Source: an uncultured Variovorax sp.
GTDB taxonomy: Bacteria; Pseudomonadota; Gammaproteobacteria; Burkholderiales; Burkholderiaceae
NCBI GenBank assembly: GCA_946478645.1
Contig: CAMLCW010000201.1
Location: forward strand, 1-9,455
Direction of reading: 5' to 3'
DNA length: 9,455 nt
Program-made: the position numbers and the translations under genes
The notes under the pieces: generated by a model
Told to the model about the DNA's origin: nothing
Databases searched by the model: none
What the model saw: only the letters and a program-made list of their open reading frames with translations
Shown: piece by piece, positions 2 to 3,503 of the stretch
Layout: every line of letters begins with the position of its first letter
How positions within the stretch are numbered: the first letter of the stretch is position 1

Positions 2-697
2 CGCCTGCTCGAATGGCACCGCCGCAACGAGCTGCCGCGCGTGGCCGCCCTGCTCCAGGAGGCCGAGGCGCTGGCGCCGGGCGAGGTGAACGCCGGCCAA
101 GCCTGCCGCATGGCCGGGCAGATCCGCGAGCGCCTGCTCGCGGTGGCGCTGCAGGCGGAACCCGCGATCGCCGACATCGCGTTGGGCCTGGGCACGGCGC
201 AACTGCAGCAGCTCGAGCGCAAGTACGCGAAGATCAATGCCGAATACCGCAAGGAATGGCTCGACCCCGGCAGGGCCGAAACGCTCGAACGGCGCTACGA
301 CCGCTTCCTCGAACGCCTCGAAGACTTCTACGGCCGCCTCGAGCCCGCGCAGCGCGACCTGCTTCGCCAGCAGATCGCGCAGTCGGTGTTCGATCCGAGG
401 CTCGCCGATGCGGAGCGCCGGCAGCGGCAGCAAGAGGTGTTGGCGCTGCTGCGCGGCTTCCAGGCCGACCGCCCGCCGGCGGCCGAGGCACGCGCTGCGA
501 TCCACGCCCACGTGCTTCGCATCGCCGATCCGCCACCCGGCCCCTGGCGCGAGCACCAGCAGGCGCTGCTCGAGGAGGGCTGCCGCAACCTGGCGGCGCT
601 GCACGGCGTCACGAGCGCCGGCCAGCGCGACAAGGCCGCGCGCCGGCTGCAGGCCTACCGGGACGATCTGCGGCAGTTGATGGCGGCGGCGCCGTGA
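2..697 (+). CDS. DUF6279-type lipoprotein, 3' part (5' end outside window)
   Basis: The frame is open from base 2 and ends at TGA 695-697, leaving 231 residues of what is normally a protein of roughly 270-300. A GTG at 41 is in frame, but clear family sequence (RLLEWHRRNELPRVAALLQEA) lies before and across it, so the true start is upstream of the window. The missing part should hold the lipoprotein signal peptide and lipobox cysteine. What remains is almost all helix, rich in Arg, Gln, Glu and Leu, with the family-like stretch LERKYAKINAEYRKEWLDP, then a second helical block (ERRQRQQEVLALLRGF), suggesting an extended helical periplasmic protein. No enzymatic motif is visible and the function of the family is not known to me. 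It converges on the Crp/Fnr gene with a 10-bp gap. Family assignment is from remembered sequence pattern and is fairly secure; the function is open. Confidence 0.8.
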   Translation, partial: RLLEWHRRNELPRVAALLQEAEALAPGEVNAGQACRMAGQIRERLLAVALQAEPAIADIALGLGTAQLQQLERKYAKINAEYRKEWLDPGRAETLERRYDRFLERLEDFYGRLEPAQRDLLRQQIAQSVFDPRLADAERRQRQQEVLALLRGFQADRPPAAEARAAIHAHVLRIADPPPGPWREHQQALLEEGCRNLAALHGVTSAGQRDKAARRLQAYRDDLRQLMAAAP

Positions 698-707
698 TGC
701 GGCGCAG

Positions 708-1478
708 CTAAATCAGCGGCGTCGGCCGCATCGGCCGCTCGAAGTAGTCGCCCAGCCTTTCGAGCGCATGCGGCTCGAGGATGCGCAGCCAGCCGGCATC
801 GAGCTTGTAGAGCCCGAGCGCCTGGAGCTTGCGCAAGGTCTTGTTGGTGTGCACCAGCGACAGCCCGAGCGCGTCGGCGATGTGCTGCTGGCTGAACGGA
901 AACTCCACCCACTCGTCGCGCACCATGCCGACGCGCTGCGCGCGCCGGTACAGATGCATCAGCAGCATGGCGACCCGCTCGCTCGCGTTGCGGCGTCCCG
1001 CGGTCACGAGGTTGTCGTCGACCAGCTTTTCCTCGCGCGCGGCGAGCCAGGTGATGCTGTAGCCGAGCTTCGGCTGGGCATGGAAGAGTTCCCAGAGCCG
1101 GGCGCGCGGAAAGGCGCAGAGGGTGGTGTCGGTCACGGCCTCCACGCCGTGCGTCTGCCCGTCGGCGAATTCGTCCTGCAGCCCGATGAAGTCGCCCGGC
1201 AGCAGGAAATTCAGGATCTGGCGCCGGCCGTCGCTGAGCGTCTTGAAGCGGAAGGCCCAGCCGGCATAGATGGTGAACAACTCGGGGCTGGGCCGATGCT
1301 CGTCGATGATCGCGCGCCCGGCCGCGACATGGCGCGATCCGGTCCTGAACGCCTGGATGGTCGCGAGTTCGTCCTGCGACGCGGGCAGGAAGGCGTCTAG
1401 CCGCCGCAGCGCGCAGTCGTCACAAGGGTTCGGGCCTGCGGGCGGCGGCGCGGGAAGGGCGTAGTCATCGGATCTCAC
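708..1478 (-). CDS. Crp/Fnr-family transcriptional regulator with partial FNR cysteine set
   Basis: 256 residues. An N-terminal cyclic-nucleotide-binding-type beta roll (about 35-150, with FLLPGDFIGLQDEF at 91-104) is followed by the dimer helix and a C-terminal winged helix-turn-helix (about 165-245; recognition helix region ALGLSLVHTNKTLRKL). Cys19-x2-Cys22 and Cys121 align with FNR Cys20, Cys23 and Cys122, but the FNR Cys29 position is Asp28. Oxygen or redox sensing through a cluster is therefore possible but not canonical. The FNR contact residues E209/S212/R213 are V209/N212/K213 here, so the operator should differ from TTGAT-N4-ATCAA. The start is GTG at 1478: an in-frame TAG lies three codons upstream, and the ATG at 1466-1468 is out of frame. 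There is no well-placed Shine-Dalgarno; a TATAGT hexamer sits 5 nt before the start. The gene is divergent from BLUF across a 14-bp dyad. Family is certain; ligand and targets are inferred. Confidence 0.93.
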   Translation of the reverse strand: MRSDDYALPAPPPAGPNPCDDCALRRLDAFLPASQDELATIQAFRTGSRHVAAGRAIIDEHRPSPELFTIYAGWAFRFKTLSDGRRQILNFLLPGDFIGLQDEFADGQTHGVEAVTDTTLCAFPRARLWELFHAQPKLGYSITWLAAREEKLVDDNLVTAGRRNASERVAMLLMHLYRRAQRVGMVRDEWVEFPFSQQHIADALGLSLVHTNKTLRKLQALGLYKLDAGWLRILEPHALERLGDYFERPMRPTPLI

Positions 1479-1483
1479 GCCGC

Positions 1484-1489
1484 ACTATA
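1484..1489 (-). promoter_or_regulatory. Putative -10 element of the Crp/Fnr gene (TATAGT)
   Basis: Read on the minus strand, TATAGT (5 of 6 to TATAAT) lies 5 nt before the GTG start. Transcription would then begin at or next to the start codon, giving a leaderless or nearly leaderless mRNA. No good -35 hexamer is found at 16-18 bp; that region is occupied by the dyad at 1502-1515. Confidence 0.45.
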
Positions 1490-1501
1490 GGTCCTTTGCC
1501 T

Positions 1502-1515
1502 ATGTCTTTTGACAT
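1502..1515. promoter_or_regulatory. ATGTC-N4-GACAT dyad, candidate operator of the Crp/Fnr regulator
   Basis: A perfect inverted repeat with 5-bp arms and a TTTT spacer gives the 14-bp geometry of FNR-type boxes, though the half-site is not TTGAT. It lies in the 90-bp gap between the divergent Crp/Fnr and BLUF genes. Its centre (1508.5) is at -41.5 from the BLUF start site predicted from the TAAACT hexamer, the class II activator position. On the other side it covers where the regulator gene's -35 should be, which fits autorepression. It also contains TTGACA (1509-1514), so part of the signal could be a sigma-70 -35 box. Confidence 0.5.
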
Positions 1516-1537
1516 TTCTAGCGTCCCCGGAGCTCCC

Positions 1538-1543
1538 TAAACT
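1538..1543 (+). promoter_or_regulatory. Putative -10 element of the BLUF gene (TAAACT)
   Basis: TAAACT keeps the T1, A2, A4 and T6 of TATAAT. The hexamer 17 bp upstream is the poor -35 TTTCTA (1515-1520), as expected for an activator-dependent class II promoter. Transcription would begin near 1550 and leave a leader of about 19 nt. TTGACA at 1509-1514 is a perfect -35 but is 23 bp away, too far for this hexamer. Confidence 0.35.
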
Positions 1544-1568
1544 TCGCTCGCCTTTTGCCTCCGAACGC

Positions 1569-1973
1569 ATGACAGAACAACAAGCACTTCACGAGATCTT
1601 CTACTGCAGCCTTCTGACGCAAGACCTGCCGCCGGCCACTGTCGGCGCCATCGTGACCCAGGCCCGCGTGCGCAATGCACAACAACGGATCACCGGCCTG
1701 CTGGTGTTCGACGGCATGCGCTTCTGCCAGCACCTCGAAGGCCCCCTCGGCGCCGTGGAGACGCTGATGGACCGCATCGGCCGCGACCCGCGGCACACGG
1801 CGGTGCGGGTGCTCTACCGCGGCGCGCTCGACAGCCGCCGCTACAACGGCTTCGGCATGGGCCTGGCCGAGAGCGAGGGCCCCGACCTGATGGCCGGCGT
1901 CCATGCGCTCGACGGCGAGGCCGCGCTGAAGCACTTCCTGGCGCTGCGGCCCAGCTTCGACATCAGCATCTGA
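1569..1973 (+). CDS. Short BLUF-domain blue-light sensor protein
   Basis: 134 residues, nearly all one BLUF domain (about 8-100), which binds FAD and senses blue light through a Tyr-Gln-flavin hydrogen-bond switch. Tyr12, Asn36, Gln54 and Met97 match AppA Tyr21, Asn45, Gln63 and Met106 with identical spacing. The family core QQRITGLLVF and the HLEGP motif are present. The semi-conserved Trp104 of AppA corresponds to Phe95. About 34 C-terminal residues follow, too few for an EAL, GGDEF or cyclase output domain, so it should act through a partner protein, as PixD and BlsA do. ATG 1569 is chosen; the frame is open back to a TTG at 1509, but that segment is not BLUF-like. The ribosome site is weak. 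It is divergent from the Crp/Fnr gene, a plausible regulator or partner. Photochemistry is inferred from the residues; the partner is unknown. Confidence 0.95.
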   Translation: MTEQQALHEIFYCSLLTQDLPPATVGAIVTQARVRNAQQRITGLLVFDGMRFCQHLEGPLGAVETLMDRIGRDPRHTAVRVLYRGALDSRRYNGFGMGLAESEGPDLMAGVHALDGEAALKHFLALRPSFDISI

Positions 1974-2046: not shown

Positions 2047-2367
2047 TCAGGCCGGATCCCACGAATAGGTGGCACCGTAGCCGTCCCAGGCTTCCATCAC
2101 GATGCGCCGGCCGGCGGCCACCGCGAGCGACTCGCCCGGCGCGAGCACGAGGTCTTCGCTCGCGGAGGCTGCATTGGCGTCGGCCGTGACCCAGACCCGC
2201 CCCTGCTTGATGCGCAGCACGCTGGGCGTGCGCGCGCGCAGGCTCATGGCCTCGCCGGGTGCGATCTGCCAGGCACCACGGCGCACGGCCGGCGGCACGG
2301 CCGCGGTGGTGCGGGCGGCGCCCGGCAGGGCGGCGAGCGATTCGTTGGTGCAGACGGCGGTGGACAT
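2047..2367 (-). CDS. DUF2917 domain-containing protein
   Basis: 106 residues. A low-complexity Ala/Thr-rich N-terminus (1-30) leads into the DUF2917 domain (about 31-95), recognised by W-x-I-APGEAMSLRA, the core KQGRVWVTAD (54-63), the acidic ASEDLVLAPGESL segment (69-81) and the closing IVMEAW (89-94). The pattern suggests a small cupin-like beta fold; no metal-binding His cluster or catalytic site is visible and the role is unknown. There is no signal peptide or membrane segment, so it is probably cytoplasmic. The ATG at 2367 is supported by an AAGGAG ribosome site (2374-2379, minus strand) 6 nt away. The gene is divergent from a LysR-type regulator, a common clue that the regulator controls it, and it ends in a strong terminator. 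Family call is good; function is not known. Confidence 0.88.
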   Translation of the reverse strand: MSTAVCTNESLAALPGAARTTAAVPPAVRRGAWQIAPGEAMSLRARTPSVLRIKQGRVWVTADANAASASEDLVLAPGESLAVAAGRRIVMEAWDGYGATYSWDPA

Positions 2368-2519: not shown

Positions 2520-3503
2520 ATGCAGCACTCGCAAACCCACCTGCGCTCCCGCCCGATCTCCGCCGGCCACCTGCGCGCCTTCGAGGCGGTGGCGCGCCAC
2601 CTGAACTTCCGCGCCGCCGCCGAGGAGATGGCGCTCACCCAGTCCGCGGTCAGCCGCCAGATCCAGTCGCTCGAGGAAGAAGTGGGCGTGGCGCTGTTCC
2701 TGCGCCACACGCGCGCGGTGGAGCTCACGAGCGCCGGCGCGCAGCTGCTGCTCGCGGTGCAGCAGTCGCTGCCGCGCATCGACACGGCCGTGCGCCAGAT
2801 CCGCCAGAGTGCGGGGCGCAAGAGCGTCTCGCTGACGACCTTTGCGTCTTTCGCATCGATGTGGCTGATCCCGCGGCTTGAGGCCTTCCAGCGCGACAAC
2901 CCCGAGATCGACATCCGCATCGACGCCAGCGACGTCGCGGTCGACCTCGAGGTGGCCGACGTGGACATCGCGCTGCGCTATGGCCCGCGCGAAACCATGC
3001 CGGCCTCGGCGCTGCGCCTGTTCGGCGAAACGCTCACTCCGGTGGCGAGCCCGTGGCTGCTCAAGAGCAGCCCGCCGGTCAAGACGCCGGCCGACATCGC
3101 GCGATTCACCTTGATCGAAGCGGGCGACGCGCACCGCTCGCACCTCGAATGGCTGACCTGGCGGCGCTGGTTCGAACTGAACGGCCTCGAACGGGCGCAG
3201 CCGCGGCGCTGGCTCTACTTCAACTACGCCTACCAGATGGCCCAGGCCGCGCTCACCGGCCAGGGCGTGGTGCTGGCGCGCAGCTCGCTGATCGCCGAGA
3301 GCCTGGCCAACGGCGACCTGGTCGAGGTGCTGCCGCAGCACCGCATGGATTCGCCGATGGCCTACTGGCTCATCGCCGGTCCGCGCCAGGCGCTGCGGCC
3401 CGAGATCAAGGCGTTCTCGGACTGGCTGCAGGCGCAGGCCGTGACCACGCGCGAAACCATCGGCGAGGTCCCCGACCCCGACACCGTCGATAACATCGAT
3501 TGA
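2520..3503 (+). CDS. LysR-family transcriptional regulator, GcvA-like
   Basis: 327 residues. An N-terminal winged helix-turn-helix (about 16-75, LRAFEAVARHLNFRAAAEEMALTQSAVSRQIQSLEEE) and a linker helix to about 98 are followed by a periplasmic-binding-protein-type effector domain (about 101-311) containing the GcvA-group feature VDIALRYG (148-155). GcvA-like proteins are dedicated regulators of metabolic or transport genes; the effector cannot be read from the sequence. The C-terminus has an acidic tail (EVPDPDTVDNID). ATG 2520 begins just before the HTH; upstream in-frame codons offer no ATG, GTG or TTG before a stop at 2463, and the ribosome site is weak. It is divergent from the DUF2917 gene with a 152-bp gap holding a sigma-70-like promoter and a T-N11-A dyad, so autoregulation and control of the neighbour are plausible. 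Confidence 0.95.
   Translation: MQHSQTHLRSRPISAGHLRAFEAVARHLNFRAAAEEMALTQSAVSRQIQSLEEEVGVALFLRHTRAVELTSAGAQLLLAVQQSLPRIDTAVRQIRQSAGRKSVSLTTFASFASMWLIPRLEAFQRDNPEIDIRIDASDVAVDLEVADVDIALRYGPRETMPASALRLFGETLTPVASPWLLKSSPPVKTPADIARFTLIEAGDAHRSHLEWLTWRRWFELNGLERAQPRRWLYFNYAYQMAQAALTGQGVVLARSSLIAESLANGDLVEVLPQHRMDSPMAYWLIAGPRQALRPEIKAFSDWLQAQAVTTRETIGEVPDPDTVDNID

Follow-up and report, generated by a model that had tools for sequence, protein, structure and literature searches.

The way in which a BLUF photoreceptor without an output domain passes on its signal is understood in just a few cases, and the closest described systems join a blue-light flavoprotein to a transcription regulator. According to the available text of the respective reports, the short LOV protein PmSB-LOV binds PmlR2, a regulator encoded next to it, in the light and inhibits it (PMC9758184), BluF antagonises BluR in E. 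coli (PMC3509220), and the action of BlsA on the Fur regulator depends on light, the interaction taking place in the dark (PMC5955987). Here we analyse a stretch of 9,455 nucleotides from an uncultured Variovorax sp. (the window; contig CAMLCW010000201.1 of assembly GCA_946478645.1), in which the genes for a Crp/Fnr-family regulator and a short BLUF protein (bluf) diverge from a shared intergenic region that harbours a candidate operator. On balance we favour the reading that the regulator gene and bluf make up a single dedicated control unit, in which the regulator would activate bluf in a redox-gated fashion and the BLUF protein would feed back on it. A CRP/FNR protein, LdrP, is reportedly encoded in a light-response locus of Thermus, where the photoreceptor is said to be the B12 protein LitR and not a BLUF protein.

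An initial annotation of the window, made from the letters alone, knew of no described pair of a BLUF and a Crp/Fnr protein of this type, and the literature searched, mainly open papers, agrees: no description was found among the titles and abstract starts of the best matches listed. Likewise, neither Crp nor Variovorax nor Polaromonas comes up in the available text of a review of prokaryotic blue-light sensors (PMC4844311).

The divergent locus and its candidate operator

The open reading frames (ORFs) of the regulator and the BLUF protein are separated by 90 nt and lie head to head, precisely as the initial annotation had placed them. The elements of the locus are as follows.

708..1478, minus strand: Crp/Fnr-family regulator, 256 amino acids (aa), GTG start, with a CxxC motif at residues 19–22, C121 and the recognition helix LGLSLVHTNKTLRK
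1484..1489, minus strand: candidate −10 element TATAGT of the regulator gene; in 64 of 74 distinct intergenic regions this strand has a TANNNT hexamer at a distance of 13–15 nt from the palindrome
1502..1515, no strand: candidate operator ATGTC-TTTT-GACAT, a perfect palindrome with the core 12-mer TGTC-TTTT-GACA at 1503–1514
1538..1543, plus strand: −10 hexamer TAAACT of bluf, 23 nt after the palindrome, with a predicted start at ~1550
1569..1973, plus strand: short BLUF photoreceptor, 134 aa, Pfam PF04940, no output domain recognised

For bluf the ATG at 1569 is the preferred start; the TTG at 1509 given in the ORF list falls within the palindrome. The palindrome is the sole match to its sequence in the window and did not arise once in 200 shuffles of the window, and its spacer of four bases is that of FNR boxes. 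It recurs, perfect or as a near copy, in all 45 intergenic regions inspected from a BLUF scan that took one genome per species and comprised 48 loci, 28 from Variovorax and 20 from Polaromonas or Acidovorax. A positional test was entered with 84 loci, of which two (L063 and L083) were dropped for want of a BLUF gene, leaving 82 rows and 74 distinct intergenic regions. Amongst these the palindrome is perfect in 43 and scores at least 8 out of 10 in 72; six of its 12 positions never vary and the half-site is near-invariant.

The distance between the palindrome and the −10 hexamer of bluf is similarly constrained. In 70 of the 74 regions the 12-mer is followed at exactly 23 nt by a TANNNT hexamer, the other offsets between 8 and 35 nt being represented by three occurrences at 24 and one at 25; the four regions without a hexamer at 23 are L013, L015 and L017, where it lies one base later, and L164. 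A second set of 24 BLUF-linked loci with more distant regulators has the hexamer at 23 nt in 18 (and in 17 of the 22 loci with a palindrome score of at least 8.5), with two occurrences at 24 and one at 34 amongst the other offsets from 8 to 39, and the fixed spacing holds where regulators are down to ~50% identical. With the −10 hexamer placed at −12 to −7 and the offset of 23 nt, the centre of the palindrome falls at −41.5 relative to the predicted start of bluf, and −41.5 is the class II position of Crp/Fnr activators. The candidate operator and its fixed distance from the predicted −10 element are new here and go beyond the initial annotation.

A promoter scan identified no sigma-70 promoter. 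A promoter that depends on an activator and lacks a −35 element at 16–18 nt should give this outcome, which counts neither way. On the opposite strand the palindrome would be centred at ~−31.5 from the predicted start of the regulator gene and would overlap its −35 region, a geometry from which autorepression is plausible, with roughly even odds. The TATAGT box lies a few nt before the GTG codon of the regulator, with similar spacing in related Variovorax and Polaromonas loci, and because it ends just before the start codon the regulator mRNA may be leaderless.

Conservation of the pair and its flanks

Of the 48 loci of the BLUF scan, 46 have a regulator homologue upstream of bluf and divergent from it; in a 47th (L046) the regulator is truncated at the contig end, and only L041, from Polaromonas sp. 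P2-4, has no regulator beside bluf. The closest BLUF homologues in this species collection are from Variovorax and at most 83% identical. A survey of 61 genomes of the genus (thresholds E <= 1e-45 for the regulator and E <= 1e-15 for BLUF) revealed both genes, adjacent to one another, in 50 genomes, neither in 11 and one alone in none (Fisher p 2.4e-12 if the genomes were independent, which they are not). The pairing exceeds chance, and the pair is real and conserved across at least three genera; it is probably old. This disposes of the possibility, raised in the initial annotation, that the genes are adjacent only in this strain. The site follows the same pattern, since pair and site are absent together in the genus save for one stray match: G043 is the sole genome of the 11 pair-less ones with a one-mismatch match, which by eye lies in a coding stretch. 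In G020, G038 and G044, which carry the pair and have no one-mismatch match, the palindrome is present in a more diverged form.

The window allows the pair to be compared with its neighbours.

2..697: DUF6279 gene, tail to tail with the regulator gene
2047..2367: DUF2917 gene, right flank of the pair
2520..3503: gene of a GcvA-like LysR regulator, right flank of the pair

These flanks raise the question whether the adjacency reflects phylogenetic inertia in a syntenic block and has no functional meaning. Within Variovorax the flanks also stay, DUF2917 and LysR beside bluf in 28 of 28 loci and DUF6279 beside the regulator in 17 of them, and even in the 20 Polaromonas and Acidovorax loci (L029–L048) DUF6279 is kept in 13, so that part of the adjacency is general synteny; a recount on this point ruled out the simpler notion that all flanks scatter outside Variovorax. 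The right flank behaves differently, for in the same 20 loci DUF2917 is found within 700 nt in four and LysR within 1,300 nt in two, whereas 18 (19 with L046) still have the regulator at most 400 nt away from bluf. Moreover, the pair can vanish from a standing block. The flanking LysR gene was found in 10 of 12 genomes (the 11 pair-less ones and G006, the genome of L041); in L203, L206 and L207 DUF6279 and DUF2917-LysR are in place and the pair is missing between them, and in L204, L205 and L208–L210 DUF2917-LysR is in place with no regulator or BLUF in the stretch examined (that of L212 stops at a contig edge). The pair is more stable than its right flank and shares part of its stability with the left one, both the candidate operator and its spacing are under constraint in the intergenic region, and inertia as the whole explanation is disfavoured to the point of being very improbable.

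Two loci amount to natural experiments, each a single case. In L026 the regulator and bluf are 1,368 nt apart, separated by an inserted ORF of 385 aa (acyltransferase-like by eye), and the palindrome and −10 element remain with bluf while the TATAGT box remains with the regulator. G006 has no close regulator homologue anywhere (best match 30% identity), and the site before its bluf gene is weakened to GGTC-TTTT-GGCA. The TATATT −10 hexamer of L041 was considered as a sign of activator independence and dropped, as L032, L039, L043 and L048, which have the regulator, share it. The initial annotation had named the adjacent regulator as candidate partner or controller. It is partly supported: a role as controller is well supported because the Crp/Fnr-type site is fixed at −41.5, stays with bluf in the split pair of L026 and is absent, but for the one stray match, where the pair is absent in the genus, whereas a role as partner of the BLUF protein is putative. 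From this pattern of sites we consider it very probable that the regulator binds the candidate operator and activates bluf.

Specificity of the site

The palindrome could instead be read by another Crp/Fnr protein, such as a global FNR/ANR homologue or a second Crp, the linked regulator being a mere neighbour. Crp/Fnr paralogues are common, some loci of a second regulator subclade have another Crp protein next door, and the −10 hexamer is TATATT in five intergenic regions of which four have the regulator, so promoter strength varies for other reasons too. The site of a global regulator should recur in the genome, though, and this one hardly does: TGTCTTTTNACATT occurs once in seven of eight genomes and not at all in G006, and a one-mismatch search of the 61 genus genomes with the 14-mer TGTCTTTTGACATT returned 79 matches against 12 for the reversed control, 47 of them at the pair and 32 elsewhere (coordinates compared by eye). 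The weakening of the site in G006, the sole genome that lost the linked regulator, likewise argues against a different reader, and we regard one as improbable.

Of the 32 matches elsewhere 29 were inspected, and recurrent groups lie before bphO-bphP, at a hydrolase locus and at a galactose-oxidase-like gene (assigned by eye, except for the phytochrome). Thirty loci were examined out of 36 bphP matches; the palindrome score upstream of bphP is at least 9 in three and 8.5 in two, while an equal stretch taken as control reaches 8 at most. These sites are suggestive and do not make a regulon. In L178, as well as in L096 and L088 (site at position 3001 in both), a palindrome of this kind precedes bphP by ~650–690 nt; the sites of L096 and L088 directly follow a gene that looks, by eye, like one for an AMP nucleosidase. 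L094, L102, L103 and L105 (site at 3001) share a conserved off-locus palindrome that has an alpha/beta-hydrolase-like gene on one side and a small uncharacterised gene on the other (by eye). Twenty Polaromonas and Acidovorax genomes contain 28 exact 12-mers, 15 at the pair; most of the other 13 are treated as chance because several lie inside genes (two in dnaK). The notion that the protein is a general photo-regulator was rejected.

The regulator

The regulator matches the Pfam families HTH_Crp_2 (7.1e-14) and cNMP_binding (2.8e-13), both above cut-off, and with the cNMP_binding fold, the HTH_Crp domain and the FNR and CRP folds that lead the structure search it belongs to the Crp/Fnr superfamily. 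The nearest NCBIfam model, FnrL, scores 83.7 bits against a cut-off of 300, and the curated models of FixK (75.5 of 300 bits), Fnr (56.2 of 228) and CRP (25.6 of 266) are likewise far from their cut-offs, hence we do not file the protein under any of these four names. The solved relatives in the Protein Data Bank (PDB) are FixK2 and Aliivibrio fischeri FNR. In an AlphaFold2 model (pLDDT 84.2) the predicted fold is closest to FNR, even though the score against the curated Fnr model falls short: A. fischeri FNR is the top match with TM scores of 0.68–0.78, normalised by query length, and FixK2 follows within the top 11 at 0.68.

The cluster cysteines of E. coli FNR are C20, C23, C29 and C122. 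Aligned to A. fischeri FNR, C19 and C22 of the regulator correspond to the first two N-terminal cysteines and C121 to the later one, and the position of the third N-terminal cysteine is D28. The initial annotation was right to speak of a part of the FNR cysteine set: C19, C22 and C121 are invariant across 31 aligned homologues and are found in 73, 73 and 75, respectively, of 79 distinct rows, and the third position is occupied by P, D, E, G, A, S, K or R in the 79 rows and by cysteine in none. The regulator retains three of the four cysteines on which the oxygen-sensing [4Fe-4S] cluster of FNR depends. The redox part of the initial annotation has its sole basis in these three conserved residues, the four-cysteine set of FNR being incomplete. 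The recognition helix LGLSLVHTNKTLR is near-invariant in the 79 rows and in the 31 aligned homologues.

The BLUF protein

The BLUF domain is unmistakable (PF04940, 9.2e-24, 83.8 bits against a cut-off of 25) and spans residues 7–98 of 134. Pfam recognises no other family in the protein, and no output domain is recognised in the 36 residues that follow the domain, which bears out its description as an output-less BLUF protein. PDB matches include BlrP1, a BLUF-family receptor (2byc) and AppA, and in the alignment to AppA residues Y12, N36 and Q54 pair with Y21, N45 and Q63. The photocycle tyrosine and the flavin-binding asparagine are present in 74 of 74 rows and the glutamine in 70. The initial annotation's statement that the photocycle residues are kept is mostly correct; it holds for these three residues and fails at the position of the AppA tryptophan, which is phenylalanine in 73 rows and tyrosine in one. 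In L029 and L033, both from Polaromonas, BLUF genes stand in tandem on the downstream side of the divergent regulator.

Wider distribution of the two genes

A survey of 250 genomes of the order found BLUF in 88 and the regulator (E <= 1e-25) in 13. All five regulators with at least 50% identity lie beside BLUF and the eight below 50% do not, and none of the 30 best other BLUF loci has a regulator homologue within up to 1.5 kb on each side. The pairing is for that reason a feature of one BLUF lineage, and the idea that every BLUF gene lies near such a regulator is ruled out. At the level of the family (299 genomes) the regulator (E <= 1e-45) was found in 59 genomes, 30 of which have a divergent BLUF gene (L302 by a weak match). 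In the class, a regulator match (E <= 1e-30) was present in 22 of 369 genomes; eight class-level loci examined with wider flanks (L318–L325) have no BLUF there, L318 and L319 at 55–56% identity amongst them. The neighbours of the regulator in the second subclade (47–51% identity) are, judged by eye, mostly genes of a stress type or a further Crp.

In a quickly searched tree of 80 regulators, many of whose branches are weak, BLUF linkage occurs in both main subclades and requires 11 changes, where shuffles need 27 on average; such a pattern fits a pairing that is old and has been lost repeatedly. Before descent is taken into account, linkage to BLUF and presence of the palindrome also look strongly associated (cross-tabulation 38, 4, 12 and 26; Fisher 4e-8), L026 having been set by hand to 'palindrome present' in this comparison, as its palindrome lies 1.3 kb from the regulator.

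Besides the partial synteny with DUF6279, several of these findings weigh against a dedicated, redox-gated unit. Conserved adjacency, for which the initial annotation had called, stands within the genus, and in this respect the genes are adjacent and co-conserved in the manner of PmlR2/SB-LOV; it is not universal, as 29 of the 59 family-level regulator homologues have no adjacent BLUF. The identities of these BLUF-less regulators (L269, L270, L273, L280, L281 and L290–L292, for example) range from 54 to 68%, with some at 64–68% and L269 at 68%. A palindrome is still found close to the regulator in 12 of 38 loci without BLUF, and its role may therefore lie in autoregulation or in the control of other neighbouring genes. 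In a tree-aware comparison of BLUF and palindrome there are five independent pairs with a median p of 0.5, and 31 of 77 inner branches are weak. Finally, FNR-like oxygen sensing is not established, because the third FNR cysteine is absent.

The more distant homologues lie in diverse surroundings. The proposition that every such regulator lies near BLUF is rejected. The broader one that the whole lineage is linked to light is only partly supported, with two of the eight regulators below 50% identity in the survey of the order in light loci: in G183 a distant regulator (46–47% identity) lies beside a heme oxygenase, a phytochrome kinase and a response regulator, and in G116 another (46–47%) belongs to a cluster that also encodes phytoene synthase and the H subunit of the reaction centre. 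L161 has a 46%-identical regulator and a second Crp/Fnr gene in a photosynthesis-type cluster (8741 and 8812–9648), with the palindrome TGTCTTTCGACA between the two regulator genes. In L305, L306 and L315 regulators of ~50% identity without BLUF have a perfect palindrome upstream that faces other genes. In L158–L160, from three BLUF-negative genomes, the genes of a CheY-like response regulator and of a conserved ~230-aa protein converge on that of the regulator homologue; the ~230-aa protein has no Pfam match in L158, and of these genomes only G183 has the phytochrome as well. A 138-aa ORF in L158, taken by eye for a BLUF relative, was dropped for lack of a Pfam match, and the palindrome in L158 (2900) is weak evidence because it overlaps the listed start of a heme-oxygenase ORF.

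A putative light-and-redox feedback switch

We propose that the Crp/Fnr protein would bind the palindrome TGTC-N4-GACA between the two genes, which has its centre at −41.5 of the bluf promoter, and would activate bluf by a class II mechanism, touching RNA polymerase next to the −35 region. Bound there, the regulator would also cover the −35 region of the gene that encodes it and may thereby keep its own level down; its activity is probably gated by redox or iron–sulphur state via C19, C22 and C121. The BLUF protein, which would be produced while the regulator is in its active form, would most likely act back on the regulator in a light-dependent manner, closing a light-and-redox feedback switch. 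By analogy with the described systems such an action of BLUF on the regulator is likely in the sense of an almost even chance.

The main alternative is that control runs one way: the Crp/Fnr protein regulates bluf, and the BLUF protein signals to an unlinked partner and never touches the regulator. The operator evidence bears on transcription only, the 29 regulators without an adjacent BLUF show that the regulator does not need it, and BlsA acts on Fur and not on a dedicated partner (PMC5955987, available text). What speaks for a closer bond is that the pair is kept or lost as a unit in the genus, with no genome that has one gene alone. One-way control is a serious contender, a little short of an even chance.

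Taking the feedback unit a step further, the three-cysteine FNR-like activator may make its own light-sensing antagonist (or co-activator); the BLUF protein would dock in one light state, bluf would answer to redox and light together, and the locus would be the first BLUF–Crp/Fnr signalling pair, from a regulator lineage that may be wired elsewhere to other light systems, namely bacteriophytochrome operons in some Variovorax, the phytochrome cluster of G183 and the photosynthesis gene cluster of G116. We put this fuller version forward tentatively, as somewhat less probable than not. The pair is compact, occurs in culturable soil and plant bacteria, and has its candidate operator, promoter and sensing residues placed to the base. 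Were the feedback step true, it would be a natural light-and-redox gate of a type not met in the open literature searched, and a possible optogenetic part.

Comparison with known systems

With FNR and FixK2 the regulator shares the predicted fold, three of the four FNR cysteines, the palindrome with its 4-base spacer and the −41.5 position; it differs from them in the missing third cysteine, another recognition helix and the half-site TGTC in place of TTGAT, the half-site of FNR. Acinetobacter BlsA is, like the protein described here, a short BLUF, and acts on a transcription regulator; that regulator is Fur and not a Crp/Fnr protein, and an adjacent encoded partner is not reported in the available text (PMC5955987). 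E. coli BluF/BluR (YcgF/YcgE) also combine a BLUF protein with a neighbouring regulator, whereas an EAL domain is part of BluF, the repressor BluR resembles MerR and the operator layout is another one. In contrast to PmlR2/PmSB-LOV of Pseudomonas mendocina, where a LOV protein meets a LitR/CarH-family repressor, the Variovorax locus pairs BLUF with Crp/Fnr and the contact is putative; what the two have in common is that the gene of an output-less blue-light flavoprotein adjoins that of a transcription factor.

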